Shown here piece by piece: positions 45,965-55,581 of a stretch of DNA of 64,000 nucleotides (the stretch's first letter is position 1; every line of letters starts with the position of its first letter). The DNA lies in contig SVNX01000010.1 of assembly GCA_015066665.1 (NCBI GenBank), positions 1-64,000 on the forward strand, written 5' to 3'. Position numbers and translations under genes: made by a program. This DNA comes from Ruminococcus sp. Lineage in GTDB: Bacteria; Bacillota; Clostridia; Oscillospirales; Ruminococcaceae. The notes under the pieces were generated by a model. That model was not told where the DNA came from and did not search any database. It saw nothing but the letters and a program-made list of their open reading frames with translations.

Positions 45965-47692
45965 TTATATTCCGGCGTCCTCCAGGAACATCCGGACTGT
46001 GCCCTGATAGCCCGCACCGGCTGCAGCGGCATACTGGAGGATGTTGGCTGCATCGGCGGCATCGAAGACCTGATCGCCGTTGACGTCTGCGGCCTTCTTC
46101 TGCAGGTCAGTCAGTCCGCTGTCCTGTCCGCTGCCGGCAGCGGCCGCACTCACAAGGATGGAAGCGGCATCGGAAGCGTCGGCAACGCTGTCGCTGTTGA
46201 GGTCACCCGGATGGAAGGTGCTGTTGAAATAGACCGTGCCGATGTCCAGATTGTAGTTGTCTGCACCGATCGTGATGGCATTCCACTCTTCCTCCGTGCC
46301 GGCAAAATAGACTTCAATCGGGTCATAGCCGGTATAGAGTGCCTGATCGCCGATGGAGGTGACGCTCGAGGGAATGTTGATGTATTCCACATCGTAGCAG
46401 TTAATGAACAGGTTTTCCGGCAGCGAGGTTACGCCTTCCTCAATGGTAATTTCCCGAAGGCCGCTGCCGCTGAAGGCACCTTTTTCGATGGTCTCCACGC
46501 TGCCGGGAATGGTGATCTCCCGCAGTGCATTGCAGTTGAAAAAGGCGTTGTCGCCGATGTATCGGATGCCCTCATGCAGATCAGCCGAGGCCAGCGACTG
46601 GCAGTCGGAGAAGGCGGATGGCCCGATGGTCGTCACGGTGTCCGGAATGTCCATGGCCGGCAGGCTGTGACAGCCGCTGAAATAATCCTGCGGGATCTCT
46701 GTGATGCCTGCGGGGAGGGCGGTGTCTGTGAGACTTTTGCAGTCTTTGAACATGCCGATGGCTATGGTATTGAAACCGGCCGGAAAATGCAGAGTCTCGA
46801 GGGCCTCGCAGTAGCTGAATGCATATGCACCGATGGAAGTGACCGAATCCGGGATCACGATCTCCTTCAGGGCGCCGTTTTCCCGGAAGGCACTCGGATT
46901 GATTGTGGTTACGCCGTCCGGCACGATGTGCCTTGTGTACTGTCCGCCTGCCGGATATTGGAAAAGCGTGGTCAGTGCCTTGTCGTAGAGTGCACCATCA
47001 ATGTCGCAGTAGTGGGCATTCGCATCGTCCACATCGATGGCCTCGAGGGAATCACACCACAAAAAACAGCCCGTGCCGATGGAAGTCACAGATGCCGGAA
47101 TGTTGATCCGCTGCAGGGAGGTGCAGTCAAGAAACGCACTTTCTCCGATCGTCTGGAGACCGTCGGGGAGCGTTGCTTCCTTCAGCGAGCCGCAGAATGC
47201 AAATGCTTCCTCCCCGAGGGAGAGGAGGGCGTCGGAGAATTCGGCCTTTTCAAGTGCATCACACCATGAAAACGCACCGGTGCCGATGTATTCCACGGTA
47301 TCGGGGAGTGTGACCTCCCTGAGACTGGTGCAGTGTTCGAAGGCCTTGTAGTTGATGTGCTCGAGCGAAGCGGGGAGCTTCACATCCGTCATTTCCGTGC
47401 AGTAGCCGAAGCAGAAGCCGCCGATGACGGCAACAGGAGAATCACCGATCGCATCCGGAAGGCTCACAGAGGTCAGGGATTCCTCCGGTACAAGAAGATC
47501 GGAAATCTCAAAATAGTTCAGGGATTTGTCAGTCTGCGCTGAATGATAGATGACCTTGAAATCTTCATGATCATAGAAGGTATAGTAGGTTTCACCGCAG
47601 TCCTCCACAATGCCGGCATGCGCCGCAAAGGGCCGGATCTGCACAGCACAGGTCAGGGCAAGGAGGGCGGCAAGGATTCTGCTTGTCTTCAT
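45965..47692 (-). CDS. Secreted LRR-dockerin protein, large
   Basis: 575 residues. Signal peptide about 1-26 (FAAHAGIVED), an N-terminal segment, about 15 LRR_5 repeats (for example YIGTGAFSWCDALEKAEFSD), a segment EVYFAGTEEEWNAITIG near 455-470 that often ends such arrays, then a complete dockerin (HPGDLNSDSVADASDAASIL and AADVNGDQVFDAADAANIL, about 492-560). AAAAGGAGC precedes the ATG. Single-gene transcript with its own promoter and terminator. Divergent from the cobalamin-riboswitch operon. Confidence 0.85.
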   Translation of the reverse strand: MKTSRILAALLALTCAVQIRPFAAHAGIVEDCGETYYTFYDHEDFKVIYHSAQTDKSLNYFEISDLLVPEESLTSVSLPDAIGDSPVAVIGGFCFGYCTEMTDVKLPASLEHINYKAFEHCTSLREVTLPDTVEYIGTGAFSWCDALEKAEFSDALLSLGEEAFAFCGSLKEATLPDGLQTIGESAFLDCTSLQRINIPASVTSIGTGCFLWCDSLEAIDVDDANAHYCDIDGALYDKALTTLFQYPAGGQYTRHIVPDGVTTINPSAFRENGALKEIVIPDSVTSIGAYAFSYCEALETLHFPAGFNTIAIGMFKDCKSLTDTALPAGITEIPQDYFSGCHSLPAMDIPDTVTTIGPSAFSDCQSLASADLHEGIRYIGDNAFFNCNALREITIPGSVETIEKGAFSGSGLREITIEEGVTSLPENLFINCYDVEYINIPSSVTSIGDQALYTGYDPIEVYFAGTEEEWNAITIGADNYNLDIGTVYFNSTFHPGDLNSDSVADASDAASILVSAAAAGSGQDSGLTDLQKKAADVNGDQVFDAADAANILQYAAAAGAGYQGTVRMFLEDAGI

Positions 47693-47765: not shown

Positions 47766-47794
47766 TTGACGAATCCACGTTCCTGTGTTATAAT
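47766..47794 (+). promoter_or_regulatory. Promoter of the riboswitch-controlled operon
   Basis: TTGACG (47766-47771) and TATAAT (47789-47794), 17-bp spacer. A CCTGTG/CACAGG inverted repeat (47782-47803) surrounds the -10 box. Confidence 0.8.
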
Positions 47795-47824
47795 AATCAC
47801 AGGAATCCGTTCCTGAAATTGAAT

Positions 47825-47952
47825 ATCTTCGCAGTCCGGTACGAGGGAAGTTCGGTGCAAATCCGTCGCAACCATCATTACCGTAATTGGAGCCATCCTT
47901 AAGTCGGGATACTCACCGGACAGTGCGGGTGAGGATGCCGATCTGCATCCTT
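47825..47952 (+). promoter_or_regulatory. Cobalamin-class riboswitch aptamer (divergent, compact)
   Basis: GTCCGGT (47834-47840) pairs with ACCGGAC (47915-47921). Between them is the conserved GGGAAGTTCGGTGCAAATCC core (47845-47864), and before the closing arm the B12-box-like AAGTCGGGATACTCACC (47901-47917). A GGATGC/GCATCC hairpin (47933-47950) stands where the regulatory hairpin belongs. The family binds adenosyl- or other cobalamins. The middle is shorter than the textbook element, so subclass is uncertain. Confidence 0.85.
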
Positions 47953-48034
47953 TGCACCTTTGGATATGAAGGGTGCAGCCATTTTTCGCTTTTGCAGGCG
48001 AGCTGTGTCCCCTTGCAGAAGCAAAGGATTGCTG

Positions 48035-48076
48035 CGCCCTTTTGCTAAATTTTACGGCAAAAGGGCGTTTTTGTTT
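48035..48076 (+). terminator. Expression-platform terminator of the riboswitch
   Basis: Perfect CGCCCTTTTGC/GCAAAAGGGCG stem followed by TTTTTGTTT, 36 nt before the first gene. Its place between aptamer and gene indicates control by premature termination when corrinoid is bound. Upstream hairpins at 47953-48030 are candidate antiterminator parts. Confidence 0.8.
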
Positions 48077-48111
48077 GCCCACACAAGGGAAGCAGGACCC
48101 GGGAGGTGGGT

Positions 48112-48327
48112 ATGGATAACAAGAAACTGACAAAGGCCGACTGTCTCCTTCTGCTGCAGGAAAAGCAGCGGATGCTGACGGCAGAGGGCACACTGCGCTA
48201 CCCGAAACGAAGCGATTTCACCGAAGCGCAGGTCGTTGCCATCAAGGCCTTCCTCGGCCCGTGGCCGAGAGCACTCGAACAGGCGGGACTGAAACCCCCG
48301 AGAGAAAAGAAACACAAAGAAAAGTGA
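48112..48327 (+). CDS. Small HNH-repeat (homing-endonuclease-associated repeat) protein
   Basis: 71 residues from ATG 48112, with GGGAGG 5 nt upstream (a GTG at 48106 overlaps the ribosome site). LRYPKRSDFTEAQVVAIKAF followed by GPWPRALEQAGLKPP matches the homing-endonuclease-associated repeat fold, a short DNA-binding helix pair, with no nuclease domain attached. Lys-rich tail. It is the first gene after the cobalamin riboswitch and lies 9 nt before the next. A regulatory or DNA-binding role is inference; why it leads a corrinoid operon is unknown. Confidence 0.7.
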   Translation: MDNKKLTKADCLLLLQEKQRMLTAEGTLRYPKRSDFTEAQVVAIKAFLGPWPRALEQAGLKPPREKKHKEK

Positions 48328-48336
48328 GGTCATCTT

Positions 48337-49272
48337 ATGAAAAAAACAATCGCCGTTCTGACTGCCGCATTTGCACTGAGCATCTGCGCAAGCCCCGTAT
48401 CTGCGGAGGAAACCACCACTGCATTTGTGACCATTGTCGATGCAGAGGGTGAGATCGTTGTTGCCGCAAAGAATCTCCATGTCACCGATACCGACGGTGA
48501 CGGCGTCCATACCATCCACGATGCCCTGTATCTTGCCCATGAGGAATGCTATGACGGCGGTGCAGCTGCCGGCTATGCCGCATCCCGTACCGAATACGGT
48601 CTGGGCATCACGAAGCTCTGGGGTACGGAGCAGGGAAGCGGCTACGGCTACTGCGTCAACGACAAGTCCGCCATGTCCCTCGAAGATCCCATCTCCCACG
48701 CCGCACGCATTACCGCATTCGTGTACACCGATACCGTGAATTATTCCGACACCTACAGCTTTTTTGACATCTCCGACATCAGCACTTCTACGGGTGAAAC
48801 CTACGAATTCACCCTTTCTGCCAACAGCTATGACGCCAGCTGGAATCCCATTGTGGTTCCTGTGGAGGGTGCAGTCATCACCATCAACGGCGAACGCACA
48901 GATTATGTCACCGATGCTGAGGGCAAGGTGACTGTGACATTTGATAAGGCCGGCGATCTGGTGTACAGTGCCGTTTCCGACAGCATGACGCTTGTCCCGC
49001 CGATCTGCCTTGCATCCATCGTCGGTGTCCCTGAAACGACAGCCCCCGAAACCACATCTCCCGAAACAACCGCCCCCGAAACCACTGCTGCTGCCACGAC
49101 ATCTGCGGCGGCGACAACGGCTGCGGGCATTTCCGTGAAGTCCACCACCACCCCGAAGTCCACCGGCACACCGGCAGCTACGGGCGACCATGCGGGCATT
49201 TTTGCCGCAGCGGCCGCTGCAATTGCCTGCCTGACTGCCGCATGTGCCATGAAAAAGCGGCATGAGGACTAA
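48337..49272 (+). CDS. Secreted DUF4430-like (transcobalamin beta-domain-like) protein with wall-anchor-like tail
   Basis: 311 residues. Signal peptide 1-23 (SPVSAEE). Residues about 28-135 follow the DUF4430/transcobalamin-C pattern: HTIHDALYLAH near 58, GLGITKLWGTEQGSGYGYCV near 88-107, VNDKSAM, and ITAFVYTD near 125. Residues about 140-222 form an Ig-like beta domain (VEGAVITINGERTDYVTDAE). A PETT/AATT linker (about 231-270) leads to PAATGD (279-284), a hydrophobic stretch (286-303) and KKRHED, the layout of a sortase signal but with a non-standard motif. It probably binds corrinoid at the surface; that is inference from domain and operon. It overlaps the next gene by 11 bp. Confidence 0.72.
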   Translation: MKKTIAVLTAAFALSICASPVSAEETTTAFVTIVDAEGEIVVAAKNLHVTDTDGDGVHTIHDALYLAHEECYDGGAAAGYAASRTEYGLGITKLWGTEQGSGYGYCVNDKSAMSLEDPISHAARITAFVYTDTVNYSDTYSFFDISDISTSTGETYEFTLSANSYDASWNPIVVPVEGAVITINGERTDYVTDAEGKVTVTFDKAGDLVYSAVSDSMTLVPPICLASIVGVPETTAPETTSPETTAPETTAAATTSAAATTAAGISVKSTTTPKSTGTPAATGDHAGIFAAAAAAIACLTAACAMKKRHED

Positions 49273-50743
49273 AATCATTGCATGGCTCCTGCCCCTGCTG
49301 CTTCTGTGCCTGCTTCCTCTTCCGGTGTGGGGGGAGGAAGCAGCCGCAATGCGGGAGGGCATCATTCGCTGTCAGCTTTCTGAAAATCATGCAGATTCTG
49401 TGCAGGAATGGATTGACGGTGCCCTCACGGAGTCTGCGGGCGTTGGTGCGGAGTGGTACATCCTCGCCCTTGCACAGCAGGGCGGATATGATTTTTCCGG
49501 CTATGCACAGGCACTTTCCGCATATCTTGCAGAGAACGAGGTGAACAGTGCCTCCACAAGACTGAAGCTGGCACTCGTGCAGAAATGCATCGGGGAGGAT
49601 GCAGAGATGCCGCCCGATGCCATCGGTCAGCAGGGGATCATGAGCGAAATTTTCGGCCTGCATCTTCTGCATAACGGCTTCGTGAGTGAGACCCATACGG
49701 AAGAAGCCCTTGTGGATGCCATTCTTTCCGCACAGCTTGCGGACGGCGGCTGGGCACTCTCCGGCGAGGTGTCCGATCCGGATGTGACGGCCATGGCACT
49801 GCAGGCGCTTGCGCCCCATGCCGGAGAATGCGGCGATGCCATTGAACGGGCACTGCAGCGGCTCTCTGCATTGCAGCGGGAGGACGGCGATTTTGCCAGC
49901 TACGGCGTCCCGAATCCCGAAAGCACAGCGCAGGTGCTCATTGCACTCGTTTCACTGGGAAGGGATCCGCTGACGGAGGCGGATTTCATCAAAAACGGCA
50001 ATACGCTCCTCGACGGCATTGCCCTGTACCGGCTTGCGGACGGACAGTTTTCCCACACAAGGGACGGGCAGGCGAATGCCAATGCCACATCGCAGGTTTT
50101 CCTTGCACTGACAGCCTATGAAACAGGGCAAAATCCCTATATTCTGAGGGAAACTGCATCAACCGCTCCGGCAGTGGGGTACAGGCTTCCCGTGATTCTT
50201 GTGATTTCCGGTGTCGGTGCAATCGTCTGCATCGTGCTGCTTTGCCGCAAAAATCGCAGCATCAAGGCGATTCTGCCGGTCATTGTTCTCACAGCGGGTG
50301 CAGCGGTCTTTGTCGGTGTGACAGATTTTCAGTCGGCGGAGGAGTATTATCAGCCGGATGCGCCGGCATCGGGCGAGGTGATCGGGACGGTCACGCTCAG
50401 CATCCGCTGCGATACGGTCGCCGGAAAGGCGGCGCACATTCCGGAAAACGGCATTATCCTTGAGGAAACAGCGCTTTCCATCTGCGAGGGCGATACGGTT
50501 TTTGATGCCCTCACGCAGGCTGTCAAAGCCCGCAGCATCCATATGGAATACAGCGGCACACCCGAGCTTGCCTATGTACGGGGTATCGGCAATCTCTACG
50601 AATTCGATCACGGAGACCTCTCCGGCTGGGTGTACCATGTGAACGGTGCGTCCGTGAGTATCGGCTGCGGAGAGTACATGCTCCAGGACGGCGATTGCAT
50701 CGAATGGCTGTATTCCTGCGATCTTGGAAAGGATGCGGAGTGA
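49262..50743 (+). CDS. Membrane protein with alpha/alpha-toroid plus DUF4430 domain (intrinsic-factor-like architecture)
   Basis: 493 residues. Signal peptide 1-24; alpha/alpha-toroid of prenyltransferase/squalene-cyclase type about 28-295, with repeats ALVDAILSAQLADGGWAL (149-166), AIERALQRLSALQREDGDFA (193-212) and LLDGIALYRLADGQFS (249-264). Two membrane helices follow (308-327, 335-352), then a DUF4430 domain (about 372-488: TVFDALTQAV, GDLSGWVYHVNG, LQDGDCIEWLY). Animal intrinsic factor and transcobalamin combine the same two fold types to sandwich B12. Here the two helices place both lobes outside the cell. Likely a corrinoid-capturing component working with the ECF transporter encoded next. 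Function is inferred from architecture, riboswitch and neighbours. Confidence 0.75.
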   Translation: MRTKIIAWLLPLLLLCLLPLPVWGEEAAAMREGIIRCQLSENHADSVQEWIDGALTESAGVGAEWYILALAQQGGYDFSGYAQALSAYLAENEVNSASTRLKLALVQKCIGEDAEMPPDAIGQQGIMSEIFGLHLLHNGFVSETHTEEALVDAILSAQLADGGWALSGEVSDPDVTAMALQALAPHAGECGDAIERALQRLSALQREDGDFASYGVPNPESTAQVLIALVSLGRDPLTEADFIKNGNTLLDGIALYRLADGQFSHTRDGQANANATSQVFLALTAYETGQNPYILRETASTAPAVGYRLPVILVISGVGAIVCIVLLCRKNRSIKAILPVIVLTAGAAVFVGVTDFQSAEEYYQPDAPASGEVIGTVTLSIRCDTVAGKAAHIPENGIILEETALSICEGDTVFDALTQAVKARSIHMEYSGTPELAYVRGIGNLYEFDHGDLSGWVYHVNGASVSIGCGEYMLQDGDCIEWLYSCDLGKDAE

Positions 50744-50789
50744 TGCAGAGGTGCTGCCCCACACTCACCAGAAGGGAGGAATACACCAT

Positions 50790-51668
50790 ATGAAGGCATT
50801 TTCCGACTACCATCCGGTTGTGCTGGCGGTTTATTTTGCGGTCACGGCGGGTATCACCATGTTCAGTCAGCATCCGGTGCTGGCGGGCATCTCCCTTCTG
50901 GGGGCCGTGGTGCTGTTCCTTGTCCGTAACGGCAGAAAACAGGGAATGTCGCATCTGCTCTTCCTCCTGATGCTGGCGGGCATGGCACTCATCAACCCCC
51001 TTGTTTCGCACAACGGCAGTACGGTGCTCTTTGTGATGAATCACAATCCTGTCACGCTGGAAGCCCTGCTTTACGGCATTTCTGCGGGCGTCACGATGAC
51101 GGCGGTGCTCTACTGGATGCGAAGCCTGTCCCAGATCATGACACGGGACAAGCTGCTTTGCGTGTGCAGCCGGCTCTCACCGGGGCTTGCACTCGTGCTG
51201 TCGATGGCAATCCGCTATATTTCTCTCTTTGCGGCACAGGCAAGGAAAATCCACCTCGCCCAGAAGGCAGCCGGCCGATACGGCGACCACAGCCTCATTG
51301 ACCGGATCCGAGGGGGCATGCGCATCTTTTCGGTGCTGCTGACCTGGGCGCTTGAGCATGGCATCACGACCGCCGACAGTATGGAGGCCCGCGGCTACGG
51401 CAGCGGAAAACGCACGCAGTTTGCCCGCTTCCGGATGGGAACGGGGGATGGACTTCTGCTTGCGGGGACGCTTCTGACAGGCGGCCTGACCTGCGGCGGC
51501 ATGGCGGCAGGTGCGCTTTCGTTTTCATTCTATCCCCGGATCGTCTGGGGCGAGGTGACGCCGCTGACAGCGGTGAGCCTTTTGTCGTTCGGGCTGCTGA
51601 CGATGCTGCCCGTAATCATTGAAGCAAAGGAGGCACTGGCATGGAAATATTATCTGTCGAGGGTCTGA
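50790..51668 (+). CDS. ecfT: ECF transporter transmembrane (T) component
   Basis: Energy-coupling T subunit that links ATPases to the substrate-binding S subunit. 292 residues from ATG 50790 (GGGAGGAATACACCAT upstream). Several membrane helices (about 8-46, 52-70, 88-112, 225-250, 262-282). The cytoplasmic coupling helices carry the family A-R-G motif at 200-202 (DSMEARGYGSG); a second copy nearer residue 160 is degenerate (AAGRYG). The 3' end overlaps the ATPase gene by 28 bp. Confidence 0.88.
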   Translation: MKAFSDYHPVVLAVYFAVTAGITMFSQHPVLAGISLLGAVVLFLVRNGRKQGMSHLLFLLMLAGMALINPLVSHNGSTVLFVMNHNPVTLEALLYGISAGVTMTAVLYWMRSLSQIMTRDKLLCVCSRLSPGLALVLSMAIRYISLFAAQARKIHLAQKAAGRYGDHSLIDRIRGGMRIFSVLLTWALEHGITTADSMEARGYGSGKRTQFARFRMGTGDGLLLAGTLLTGGLTCGGMAAGALSFSFYPRIVWGEVTPLTAVSLLSFGLLTMLPVIIEAKEALAWKYYLSRV

Positions 51669-53242
51669 GCTTTACCCATGCCGGATGCAGTGAACCTGCC
51701 GTGCGGGATGTGTCTTTCCGTGTGCGGGAGGGGGAGCTGATTGTGCTCTGCGGTGCGACCGGATGCGGAAAATCCACGCTGCTGCGTCTGCTCAAGCCCG
51801 AGCTTGCCCCGAACGGCACGCAGCACGGCCGAATTCATTTTGCCGGCACGGGATCGGGTGCGGCACGCATCGGTTTTGTCATGCAGCGTCCCGAGCAGCA
51901 GATCGTCACGGACAGGGTCTGGCATGAACTGGCCTTCGGCCTCGAAAATCTCGGCGTGCCGCAGGAAATCATGGCCGCACGCATTGCCGAAATGGCAAGC
52001 TATTTCGGCATTGAGGAATGGTACGACCGTGACACCGCTTCACTTTCCGGCGGACAAAAGCAGCTGCTCAATCTCGCTGCTGTGATGGTGATGGAGCCGG
52101 AGCTGCTCATTCTCGACGAGCCGACCGCACAGCTTGACCCGATTGCCGCATCCGAATTCATTGCGGTACTTCACAGACTCAGCCGTGATTTCTCTCTGAC
52201 GATTCTGGTGGCCGAGCATCGTCTCGAGGAACTGATTCCCCTCTGCGATCGTCTCCTTGTGATGGAGGCGGGACGCCTCATCCTCGATGATGCGCCAAGG
52301 CAGGCTGCACATGCGCTCCGGCACCATCCGGCGCGGCTCTGTGCAATGCCCGCCCCCGTGCGGCTCGGCTGCCTGCTCGGCACCGAAAGGCTGCCCCTGA
52401 CTGTACGGGAGGGAAGAGCGCTCACGGCCGAATATGCCTGCAAACCCCCGGAACCTGCGGAAACCGCCCCGCGCCGGACCTCCCCTGCGCTCACCCTTGA
52501 GCACATCCGCTTCCGGTATGACCGTGCATGTCCCGATGTATTGCAGGATCTGAATCTGACCGTGCATGAGGGTGAGATCTGCTGCCTGCTCGGCGGCAAC
52601 GGTTCGGGCAAGAGTACGGCACTGGGGGTCGCTGCAGGCCTGCTCCGGCCGATGACAGGCGAAGTCCGTGTGTTCGGCAAGCCGCTGAGACGGTATCGGG
52701 ACGGTGCACTCTACCGGGAATGCCTCGCCATGCTGCCGCAGGATGTGCAGACGCTGTTTCTGCGGCATACCGTGCGTGAGGAGCTGGCGGATGCGGGGGC
52801 GCTGGGGATGGATTTTCCGTTCGATCTGTCATATCTGTATGACCGCCACCCCTATGATCTGTCCGGCGGAGAGCAGCAGCTGACGGCACTGGCCAAGATT
52901 CTGGCGCAGAAGCCCCGCCTGCTTCTGCTCGATGAGCCGACAAAGGGACTCGATGCCGCCGCAAGACAGACGCTGACGGGCATCCTCAGGCAGCTGCAGG
53001 CACAGGGCGTGACGCTTGTGATCGTGACGCATGATGCTGAATTTGCTGCGCAGTGCGCCGACCGATGCGTGATGTTTTTCCGCGGTCAGGCCGTGTGTAC
53101 GGATATTCCGGCACGCTTTTTCTCATCGAACCGGTTCTATACCACGGCTGCCAGCCGCATGTCACGAGGGATACTTTCGGAGACCGTGACGGTCGAGGCC
53201 ATTGCCGCCTGCTGCAGGACTTCAGGAGGTGCCCCATGCTGA
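51641..53242 (+). CDS. ECF transporter ATPase, two ABC domains fused (A-A')
   Basis: Hydrolyses ATP to drive ECF-type vitamin import. 533 residues hold both ATPases that are usually separate EcfA1 and EcfA2 subunits. Domain 1: Walker A GATGCGKST (38-46), signature LSGGQ (135-139), Walker B LLILDE (155-160), His switch in VAEHR. Domain 2: Walker A GGNGSGKST (318-326), LSGGE (407-411), LLLLDE (427-432), VTHD. Q-loop MQRPEQQIV in domain 1 has the Q-rich helix typical of ECF ATPases. The linker (about 240-282) is Pro/Arg-rich. Its 3' end overlaps the S-component start. Confidence 0.9.
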   Translation: MEILSVEGLSFTHAGCSEPAVRDVSFRVREGELIVLCGATGCGKSTLLRLLKPELAPNGTQHGRIHFAGTGSGAARIGFVMQRPEQQIVTDRVWHELAFGLENLGVPQEIMAARIAEMASYFGIEEWYDRDTASLSGGQKQLLNLAAVMVMEPELLILDEPTAQLDPIAASEFIAVLHRLSRDFSLTILVAEHRLEELIPLCDRLLVMEAGRLILDDAPRQAAHALRHHPARLCAMPAPVRLGCLLGTERLPLTVREGRALTAEYACKPPEPAETAPRRTSPALTLEHIRFRYDRACPDVLQDLNLTVHEGEICCLLGGNGSGKSTALGVAAGLLRPMTGEVRVFGKPLRRYRDGALYRECLAMLPQDVQTLFLRHTVREELADAGALGMDFPFDLSYLYDRHPYDLSGGEQQLTALAKILAQKPRLLLLDEPTKGLDAAARQTLTGILRQLQAQGVTLVIVTHDAEFAAQCADRCVMFFRGQAVCTDIPARFFSSNRFYTTAASRMSRGILSETVTVEAIAACCRTSGGAPC

Positions 53243-53922
53243 TGATCCGCAGCGCACGGCTGCGTACATTTCTGAGGTGGAGCATCCCGCTGTGCCTGAT
53301 GCCTGTGATGGTGCTTGTCGGCGGTATGATTTTCCGTGAGAAACGCTATCTGCTCCTCGCCTGCATGGCAGCGGGGCTGGCGGTGCTGCTCTTCCTTTCG
53401 GGCGTGGAACGCAGGCAGACGGGGGCACGCCGGATGGTGCTGGCAGCCGTGATGACGGCACTGTGCATTGCGGGACGTTTCATTCCGCTTTTCAAGCCCG
53501 TCACGGCCATCACCGTATTGGCGGCGATGTATCTCGGACGGGAGAGCGGCTTTCTGATCGGGGCGATGGCGGCGCTTCTTTCGAATTTCTACTTCGGTCA
53601 GGGCCCATGGACGGCATTTCAGATGCTTGCGTGGGGGATGATCGGGTGGCTGGCAGGGCTGCTTGCAGAGCCGCTGAAGCGGCATCGGTTCTGGTTGCTG
53701 CTCTATGGGACGGCAGCGGGCGTGTTCTATTCGCTCGTGATGGATATATGGACGGTGCTGTGGTATCAGGACGGCTTCCATCCGGCACTCTACCTGACGG
53801 CTATTGTGACGGCACTGCCGCATACGATTCTGTATGCCGCATCGAATCTGCTGTTTCTGTGGTGGATGGCGAAGCCCTTTGGTGAAAAGCTCGGCCGGAT
53901 TCAGATCCGGTATGGAATATAG
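53236..53922 (+). CDS. ECF transporter substrate-binding (S) component, predicted corrinoid
   Basis: 228 residues from ATG 53236 (AGGAGGTGCCCC upstream). Six or so hydrophobic segments (about 17-32, 40-56, 66-85, 90-112, 120-150, 176-205). The first helices of the core bear the S-component pattern MVLAAVMTALCIAGRFIPLF and a loop AAMYLGRESGFLIGAMAALL. The ligand cannot be read from the sequence; cobalamin or a precursor is inferred from the B12 riboswitch and the transcobalamin-like genes of the same transcript. Confidence 0.8.
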   Translation: MLMIRSARLRTFLRWSIPLCLMPVMVLVGGMIFREKRYLLLACMAAGLAVLLFLSGVERRQTGARRMVLAAVMTALCIAGRFIPLFKPVTAITVLAAMYLGRESGFLIGAMAALLSNFYFGQGPWTAFQMLAWGMIGWLAGLLAEPLKRHRFWLLLYGTAAGVFYSLVMDIWTVLWYQDGFHPALYLTAIVTALPHTILYAASNLLFLWWMAKPFGEKLGRIQIRYGI

Positions 53923-53934
53923 GAGGCGACGAGG

Positions 53935-54198
53935 ATGGAATCCGAACGCAAATACAGTTGTTTTTCTCATGCGGAATGCGAATTTTTCCCCTGTCATCCG
54001 GATGCGGATCCGGCGGCATTCAACTGCCTGTTCTGCTATTGTCCCCTGTATGCACTGGGGGAAGCATGCGGCGGGGACTATGTGATGCTGGAAGGCGGCA
54101 TCAAGGACTGCAGCAGCTGTCTTTTCCCGCACCGGCCGGAGAATTACGACTGCATCACCGCAAGGCTTGCTGCACTCTGCAAACCGGAAGAAGAGTGA
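53935..54198 (+). CDS. Cys-rich small metal-binding domain protein
   Basis: 87 residues with ten cysteines, matching the cysteine-rich small domain (Pfam PF04071): YSCFSHAECEFFPCHPDADP, then FNCLFCYCPLYALGEACGG and GIKDCSSCLFPHRPENYDCI. A probable metal- or cluster-binding protein. In other genomes it is often near cobalamin genes (from memory, not checked here). AGGAGG stands 10 nt before the ATG, 12 nt after the S component. It ends the operon; no terminator is evident apart from the repeat array that follows. Confidence 0.8.
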   Translation: MESERKYSCFSHAECEFFPCHPDADPAAFNCLFCYCPLYALGEACGGDYVMLEGGIKDCSSCLFPHRPENYDCITARLAALCKPEEE

Positions 54199-54220
54199 TC
54201 TGACGCACAGCCCTCGGGGG

Positions 54221-54690
54221 GTGTCGGGGCCGCAAGGCTCCAATTTTTTCCCTCGGGGAGGGGAAGGGGAGTTTTGCACAACCATCCCCACTGGGTCAAG
54301 GGCTGTGCCCTTGAACGGGGTGTCGGGGCCGCAAGACTCCGATTTTTTCCCTCGGGGAGGGGCAGGGGCGTTTCGCAGAACCATCCCCACTGGGTCAAGG
54401 GCTGTGCCCTTGGACGGGGTGTCGGGGCCGCAAGGCTCCGATTTTTCCCCTCGGGGAGGGCAGGGGCGTTTCGCAGAACCATCCCCACTGGGTCAAGGGA
54501 TGTGCCCTTGGACGGGGTGTCGGGGCCGCAAGGCTCCGATTTTTCCTCTCGGGGAGGGGCAGGGGCGTTTCGCAGAACCATCCCCACTGGGTCAAGGGCT
54601 GTGCCCTTGGACGGGGTGTCGGGGCCGTCAGGCCCCGACTTTATTCCCCCTCCCTCAGGGAGGGGGCAGGGGGAGGGGAGTTTTCGCAGA
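54221..54690. repeat. 99-bp tandem repeat array with internal hairpins
   Basis: Four full units begin at 54221, 54320, 54419 and 54517, with a degenerate fifth from 54616; periods are 99, 99, 98 and 99 bp. Each unit contains GTGTCGGGGCCGCAAGGCTC, a CCCTCGGGGAGGG-type hairpin, TTTCGCAGAACCATCCCCAC and the hairpin AAGGGCTGTGCCCTT. The fifth unit passes into CCCCTCCCTCAGGGAGGGGG. Because 99 is a multiple of three, open frames appear on both strands, but none has a ribosome site or gene-like composition. Confidence 0.85.
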
Positions 54691-54762: not shown

Positions 54763-55581
54763 ATGCAGGCGGGTGTTTCTACGGCATGCCTGTACCCGAA
54801 GCTTCTGGAGGACGCCCTCTATGAGCTGGCGGTCAACGGCATTGCCCATACTGAGCTGTTCATCAATGCGGACTGTGAGCTGCGCCGTCCCTTTGTGGCG
54901 ACCATGGCCGAGCTGATGTCACGTTTTGGCGTGACGTGCCGTTCGCTCCATCATTTCGCTGCACCCATCGAGCCGATGATGCTGTTTTCGGTGTATGAGC
55001 GCAGAGTCGGTGACCTGATCGATTACTATAAGCATAGCTTCGAGGCCATGCAGACACTCGGTGCCGAGATCTTTGTGCTCCACGGCAACGCCGTCCATAA
55101 TCCCGTGCCCGCTGATTTTTACTGTGAACGCTTCATGCGGCTCGCTGAGGCCGCCAGACCCTACGGCGTCATCGTCGCACAGGAAAATGTCGTTCGCTGC
55201 CAGAGCGGCTCGCTCAAATTTCTCGAGGAAATGAAAGCACAGATGGGCGATGAGATCCGCTTCGTCCTCGATGTGAAGCAGGCCATCCGTGCAGGGGAGA
55301 ACCCCCACCTCATGCTCCAGCGTCTCGGCAGCAATGTCGTGCATGTCCACATCAGCGACCACAGCGAAAAAGGTGACTGCCTTCAGCTGGGTACAGGACG
55401 CTTCCGGATCCGTGCGTTCCTTGAGGAGGTTTACCGTCACAGCCCCGAATGCTCCGTGATGCTCGAGCTGTACCGCAGCAGCTACCGCGGTATCTCCGAT
55501 CTCGTCAGCAATTACCGCATGCTCTCACGCATGATTGCAGGCGTGGAAAAGGCAGCGGAGGAAACACCTTTCACAGAATGA
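54763..55581 (+). CDS. Xylose-isomerase-like TIM-barrel protein (sugar phosphate isomerase/epimerase family)
   Basis: 272 residues, whole chain an AP-endonuclease-2/xylose-isomerase-like barrel. Metal-ligand candidates: Glu in AHTELFINADCE, His in FVLHGNAV, Glu in IVAQENVVR, Asp in FVLDVKQAIR, His in VVHVHISDHS, and Glu in VMLELYRSSY near the end. The substrate is unknown; relatives isomerise sugars or inositol derivatives or act on DNA. AAAGGAG precedes the ATG. Single-gene transcript. Confidence 0.82.
   Translation: MQAGVSTACLYPKLLEDALYELAVNGIAHTELFINADCELRRPFVATMAELMSRFGVTCRSLHHFAAPIEPMMLFSVYERRVGDLIDYYKHSFEAMQTLGAEIFVLHGNAVHNPVPADFYCERFMRLAEAARPYGVIVAQENVVRCQSGSLKFLEEMKAQMGDEIRFVLDVKQAIRAGENPHLMLQRLGSNVVHVHISDHSEKGDCLQLGTGRFRIRAFLEEVYRHSPECSVMLELYRSSYRGISDLVSNYRMLSRMIAGVEKAAEETPFTE

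Follow-up and report, generated by a model that had tools for sequence, protein, structure and literature searches.

A riboswitch-associated operon of Ruminococcus sp. that combines a predicted intrinsic-factor-like surface protein with an ECF transporter

The animal carriers intrinsic factor, transcobalamin and haptocorrin are soluble proteins that are taken up with receptors. Corrinoids are contested in gut and rumen, where BtuG/BtuH of Bacteroidetes are better known than the means by which Gram-positive residents capture these compounds. Here, we describe an operon of a Ruminococcus sp. that contains a B12 riboswitch and the genes of two surface proteins and of an energy-coupling factor (ECF) transporter. 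It is real and widely conserved, and it very probably couples the capture of corrinoids to their import. The window, i.e. the whole stretch of DNA that was analysed, comprises positions 1 to 64,000 of contig SVNX01000010.1 (assembly GCA_015066665.1; 2.03 Mb, 77% complete).

Among the closest described systems are the following two. The passages considered of Burroughs et al. 2007 (PMC1796856) delineate a transcobalamin-like SLBB clade of beta-grasp proteins, which are predicted to be secreted by Gram-positive bacteria and are often fused to a toroid, in both orders. Their operons contain a CbiO ATPase and CbiQ and often a second SLBB protein, their hosts are usually without B12 synthesis, and a fusion to a beta-propeller is mentioned. 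A role in B12 scavenging was proposed there, as was an origin of the animal carriers by transfer from low-GC Gram-positives. The central idea of the present analysis is therefore 19 years old. An earlier reading of the window (the sequence-only reading) had put forward intrinsic-factor-like capture and missed this precedent; its interpretation is partly supported here. In the open-licence literature, as judged by titles and the beginnings of abstracts, no experimental follow-up of the 2007 prediction was found. The second system is ECF-CbrT (6FNP) of Lactobacillus delbrueckii, which imports cobalamin and cobinamide. According to the parts considered of that report (PMC5997447), the purified complex takes up cobalamin in liposomes unaided, with the S component named as the part that binds the substrate.

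The operon lies on the + strand, and its genes, beginning with an open reading frame (ORF) for a 73-aa protein, overlap or are separated by at most 47 bases. The riboswitch, the surface proteins and the ECF components T, A-A' and S, all noted in the sequence-only reading, were confirmed. The features are as follows.

47817–47953, + strand: adenosylcobalamin (AdoCbl)-type cobalamin riboswitch aptamer, compact variant (RF01482; 24-sequence alignment with compensatory changes)
48035–48076, + strand: likely intrinsic terminator, read from the sequence (11-bp stem 48035–48045/48057–48067 and T run)
48106–48327, + strand: 73-aa protein with a weak HNH-associated repeat (PF18780, 23.5 bits, cut-off 26)
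48337–49272, + strand: 311-aa surface protein
49262–50743, + strand: 493-aa intrinsic-factor-like protein
50790–51668, + strand: EcfT transmembrane component (CbiQ, PF02361, 3.2e-9)
51641–53242, + strand: EcfA-A' fused ATPases (two ABC_tran stretches, 6.1e-55)
53236–53922, + strand: EcfS substrate-binding component, CbrT-related (6FNP_A, 3.4e-9)
53935–54198, + strand: Cys-rich small protein of 87 aa, optional (PF04071, 8.7e-25)

The 493-aa protein consists of a signal peptide, an alpha/alpha toroid (residues about 24–290), two membrane helices (about 308–353) and a DUF4430 beta lobe (about 373–487). It is the only protein of the assembly with a DUF4430 match. Hydrophobicity and loop charge place both lobes on the outer face, as proposed earlier. 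In the predicted structure, the toroid and the beta domain form a two-lobe clamp like that of animal intrinsic factor and transcobalamin, and the membrane-anchored protein has a predicted fold resembling that of human intrinsic factor. The Pfam family PF14478 scored 64.4 bits with the 493-aa protein and 25.1 bits with human transcobalamin (cut-off 23.8), and hhalign related the DUF4430 beta-grasp to transcobalamin with an E-value of 0.0014 (probability 18). In HMMER searches of the PDB, profiles made from the full-length 493-aa protein found squalene-hopene cyclases, and one of the DUF4430 domain gave nothing below an E-value of 0.45; transcobalamin was listed by neither. The link to transcobalamin therefore rests on the Pfam family or on structure. 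A literature search for published contact residues of transcobalamin found no paper.

The 311-aa protein comprises a signal peptide, a transcobalamin-type beta-grasp (about 24–137), an Ig-like domain (about 139–230), a Thr-rich stalk and a C-terminal membrane helix. Its predicted model links it to the DUF4430 type, where a comparison of the 311-aa family with DUF4430 by hhalign had found nothing. The alignment of this family also contains a conserved DxDxDGxxTxxDAL stretch, which we take to resemble a dockerin or EF-hand calcium loop.

The ECF module is complete, with EcfT, two ATPase domains and an S component, and it is kept in relatives. Among all PDB chains, 6FNP_A of ECF-CbrT was the sole significant match of EcfS (3.4e-9). 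A profile of the 27-sequence EcfS family yielded 9.7e-14 for 6FNP_A and 0.0031 for the runner-up 4HZU. These sequence comparisons support an S component of the corrinoid type, in agreement with the sequence-only reading. The genome encodes a MetH-like protein of 783 aa (TIGR02082, 492.7 bits, below the cut-off of 1010.85 that was set for a longer form), and neither CbiC nor CobS, the two synthesis families that were sought, was found in the 77% complete assembly. Subject to this completeness, the host is therefore likely a cobamide user that must import.

The compact riboswitches of the window and of 23 homologous operons were aligned (n = 24; mean column identity 64%), and the structure was taken from the alignment of the window with RF01482. 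Paired were 71.5% of the cells compared to 64.0% in shuffles, and two-sided changes occurred in 79 cells compared to 42.5. Sliding the partners reduced every pairing measure; note that this control favours a structure derived from one of the 24 sequences. Helix 1 is poorly aligned (51.9% paired). The homologous loci thus possess the conserved core and the helices with compensatory changes that characterize an AdoCbl riboswitch, and it is the family as a whole, not the window alone, that supports this assignment. The stem and T run at 48035–48076 may serve as the expression platform for an OFF switch.

In order to detect such elements, a covariance model (R2) was trained on the 24 riboswitches, 23 of which stem from 80 loci of near homologues. 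These loci were kept from at least 595 matching stretches, of which 545 were confirmed, and originate from Oscillospiraceae, Lachnospiraceae, other Clostridia and Ruminococcus (including R. flavefaciens Y1), many from rumen or gut samples. R2 matched 63 times across these loci at E < 1e-5, always on the strand of the gene; 59 of the matches were upstream and four downstream of the gene start. Upstream matches were found in 59 of the 80 loci at a median distance of 1309 bp, including 36 of the 57 loci outside the training set. Weaker matches in L100 (0.087) and L105 (other strand, 0.33) were not counted. RF00174 was passed by five of 13 related loci missed by R2, and the Rfam scan adds L066, L087, L092, L093 and L100, such that a riboswitch is located upstream in 64 of the 80 loci. 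The sole non-B12 riboswitch in the 13 scanned loci was a lysine riboswitch in L090, on the other strand and 7.6 kb from the gene. A strict regular expression for the B12 box had matched two of the 80 loci and a looser one most of them, and both were superseded by R2; a model R1 was not used because of its poor RNAalifold structure.

A wider survey covered 297 genomes of the family. In 109 of them the 493-aa protein has a relative at an E-value of 1e-3. RF00174 and thiamine pyrophosphate (TPP) riboswitches were scanned in 80 of the 108 genomes besides the window's own; among the matches listed, the 28 remaining genomes had no E-value better than 5e-18. A B12 riboswitch was located at most 12 kb upstream on the same strand in 40 of 97 toroid/DUF4430 clusters, on the 3' side in one and on the other strand in none. 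Broken down by kind, this was the case for 17 of 47 clusters with toroid and DUF4430, 18 of 25 with DUF4430 only and five of 25 with a toroid only. The identical test with 109 TPP riboswitches yielded a single cluster of 97, at a distance of 10.7 kb. The value of 40 is probably an undercount, because the RF00174 filters were strict and contigs were short. A predominance of riboswitches for other vitamins, which would have contradicted the sequence-only reading, was not seen with TPP, the sole other vitamin class counted.

The partners of the 493-aa protein are conserved as well. Among the 80 loci, several of whose contigs end within the operon, the 311-aa type is present in 75, EcfT in 69, EcfA-A' in 67, EcfS in 64, the 73-aa type in 41 and the Cys-rich type in two; EcfT, EcfA-A' and EcfS occur jointly in 63. 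EcfT follows the gene of the 493-aa type in 64 loci and precedes it in five. Ten more distant regions were picked for a nearby riboswitch, and in nine of them DUF4430 stands beside ECF genes; L122 contains DUF4430 and no ECF gene within the stretch taken. In these regions the toroid either has a chain of its own or was not detected, the exception being L117, where it lies ahead of a second DUF4430 gene in a 676-aa chain of opposite lobe order. Rearrangement of the genes with retention of the partners argues for a joint function. Of the underlying alignments, A2 and A8 both include the window protein, together with 64 of the 80 loci and with 38 of 73 listed relatives, respectively, and A9 comprises 27 sequences; further sequences were omitted for truncation or odd frames or in order to limit alignment size.

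Several results weigh against a corrinoid system built around an intrinsic-factor-like clamp. The window aptamer reached 42.3 bits with RF01482 (E 2.4e-6), below the gathering threshold of 50, and 28.7 of the required 31.5 bits with RF00174 (E 1.6e-5), which is significant yet sub-threshold. No B12 riboswitch was found in 57 of the 97 clusters of the wider survey, and 16 of the 80 loci likewise gave none: five lack upstream sequence or have ECF genes in its place, eight were Rfam-negative on the strand of the gene and three were outside the Rfam scan. Moreover, the 80 loci are relatives and the counts are therefore not 80 independent events. Pfam assigns EcfS to the riboflavin S family (PF07155, 40.1 bits, above the cut-off). 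The toroid was related to transcobalamin unconvincingly by hhalign (E 0.029, probability 1.7), and a profile comparison of the whole protein found the beta lobe alone (E 0.0063, probability 6). PF01122 (Cobalamin_bind), the animal family, scores 361.7 bits with human transcobalamin and had no match to the 493-aa protein at an E-value of 10, which is why the latter is not filed as a member of the intrinsic factor/transcobalamin family. Finally, the training set of AlphaFold2 includes the animal carriers, and the predicted placement of the lobes may have been learned from them. The sequence-only reading had called the folds and the riboswitch class established; both folds and the B12 link are supported here, but sequence alone does not establish them.

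The operon itself, the folds, the topology, the riboswitch association and the relationship of the S component are supported by computation. In the mechanism that we infer, including ligand, affinity, handover and OFF-switch behaviour, low intracellular adenosylcobalamin would allow the riboswitch to permit transcription past the terminator. The outward toroid and DUF4430 lobes of the 493-aa protein, held by its membrane hairpin, would clamp the corrinoid in the manner of intrinsic factor and transcobalamin; the stalked 311-aa protein would bring a second transcobalamin-type beta domain. Both would enrich corrinoid on the cell surface for delivery to the CbrT-type S component, and ATP-driven turnover of the latter would be the task of the EcfT/EcfA-A' module. 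Taken as a whole, we assign a probability of roughly 0.8 to this corrinoid-scavenging system. For an ECF importer with a membrane-tethered two-lobe receptor stage, in which the 493-aa protein traps, the 311-aa protein assists and the CbrT-type S component receives the corrinoid, the odds are about even. The surface proteins might instead store or buffer corrinoids or deny them to competitors, next to an independently working ECF transporter. Such independence is displayed by ECF-CbrT, which takes up cobalamin in liposomes as a purified complex and whose S component is regarded as the binding protein (PMC5997447, as far as considered). However, surface and ECF genes stay together across two gene orders and in nine of ten distant regions with other chain layouts, and we consider separate roles rather unlikely.

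Many cobamides are present in rumen and gut, in favour of incomplete corrinoids such as cobinamide, or of cobamides other than B12, as the main ligand instead of cobalamin. Cobinamide is also accepted by ECF-CbrT (PMC5997447, in the parts considered). That CobS, which acts in nucleotide-loop assembly, was not found in the 77% complete genome speaks against cobinamide in this role and leaves other complete cobamides unaffected; this assignment is a tentative possibility. A non-corrinoid ligand, i.e. a compound resembling riboflavin or folate, or a complex of cobalt, would agree with the PF07155 label and a weak NCBIfam folT match of EcfS. It is very improbable given the association with B12 and not TPP riboswitches (40 versus one of 97 clusters), CbrT as the best structure match and the intrinsic-factor-type fold.

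Further observations concern variants and neighbours of the operon. Four loci have a second B12 riboswitch immediately 3' of the toroid gene (L055:11690-11800, L056:11668-11780, L063:11605-11717, L091:6363-6474); it is followed by an ORF of the 73-aa type and, in three of them, by ECF genes (the L091 contig ends). In the window, the 73-aa ORF lies between riboswitch and structural genes and has a weak likeness to homing-endonuclease-associated repeats; its relatives in 41 of the 80 loci mostly come soon after the riboswitch. Large surface proteins with beta-propeller matches are encoded between B12 riboswitch and DUF4430 gene in L113 (470-3109) and L122 (481-4746), possibly a Gram-positive analogue of the BtuG propeller. 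Upstream of the operon, a BspA-type leucine-rich-repeat protein with dockerin is encoded on the other strand (45965-47692). On the 3' side follow a tandem array (54218-54649; 99-bp unit, 4.4 copies, 94% matches) and a TIM-barrel gene (54763-55581). The latter was rejected as a CbiR cobamide-remodelling partner (24.2 bits, cut-off 105; relatives near the operon in none of the 80 loci), as was an NrdR-like neighbour as a part of the operon (none of 80). The Cys-rich protein, which the sequence-only reading had counted to the system, was dropped as a core part, since only two of the 80 loci have relatives.

An operon whose riboswitch, receptor and transporter are defined renders the 2007 scavenging prediction, and likewise a Gram-positive origin of animal intrinsic factor, directly testable. 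The handover step is the most interesting part, and with it the notion that an ECF transporter may have a receptor stage. If true, it would alter the view that ECF transporters bind their substrate through the S component only, by adding an extracytoplasmic capture protein. The clamp of intrinsic factor would then also have a counterpart in living bacteria, in keeping with the bacterial ancestry that has been proposed for the animal carriers.

With the clade of Burroughs et al., the window operon shares the SLBB/DUF4430 beta-grasp common to transcobalamin, a surface protein, a toroid fusion and CbiO- and CbiQ-like genes in the same operon. It differs in its riboswitch, a word that does not occur in the main text of that paper, and in the S component and the membrane hairpin between the lobes, which are not seen in the passages considered. 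RUMGNA_00854 of Ruminococcus gnavus (3U7Z), also counted among the closest systems, has been deposited as a putative metal-binding protein. ECF-CbrT, a B12 transporter with EcfT and two ATPases, has the closest solved S component by sequence. The purified complex transports in the absence of any surface capture protein, according to the parts considered of its report, whereas T, A-A' and S of the window share one operon with two surface proteins. Human transcobalamin matches PF01122 and the bacterial protein does not. In contrast to human intrinsic factor, transcobalamin and haptocorrin, the 493-aa protein is membrane-anchored, carries two helices between its lobes and adjoins an ECF transporter.
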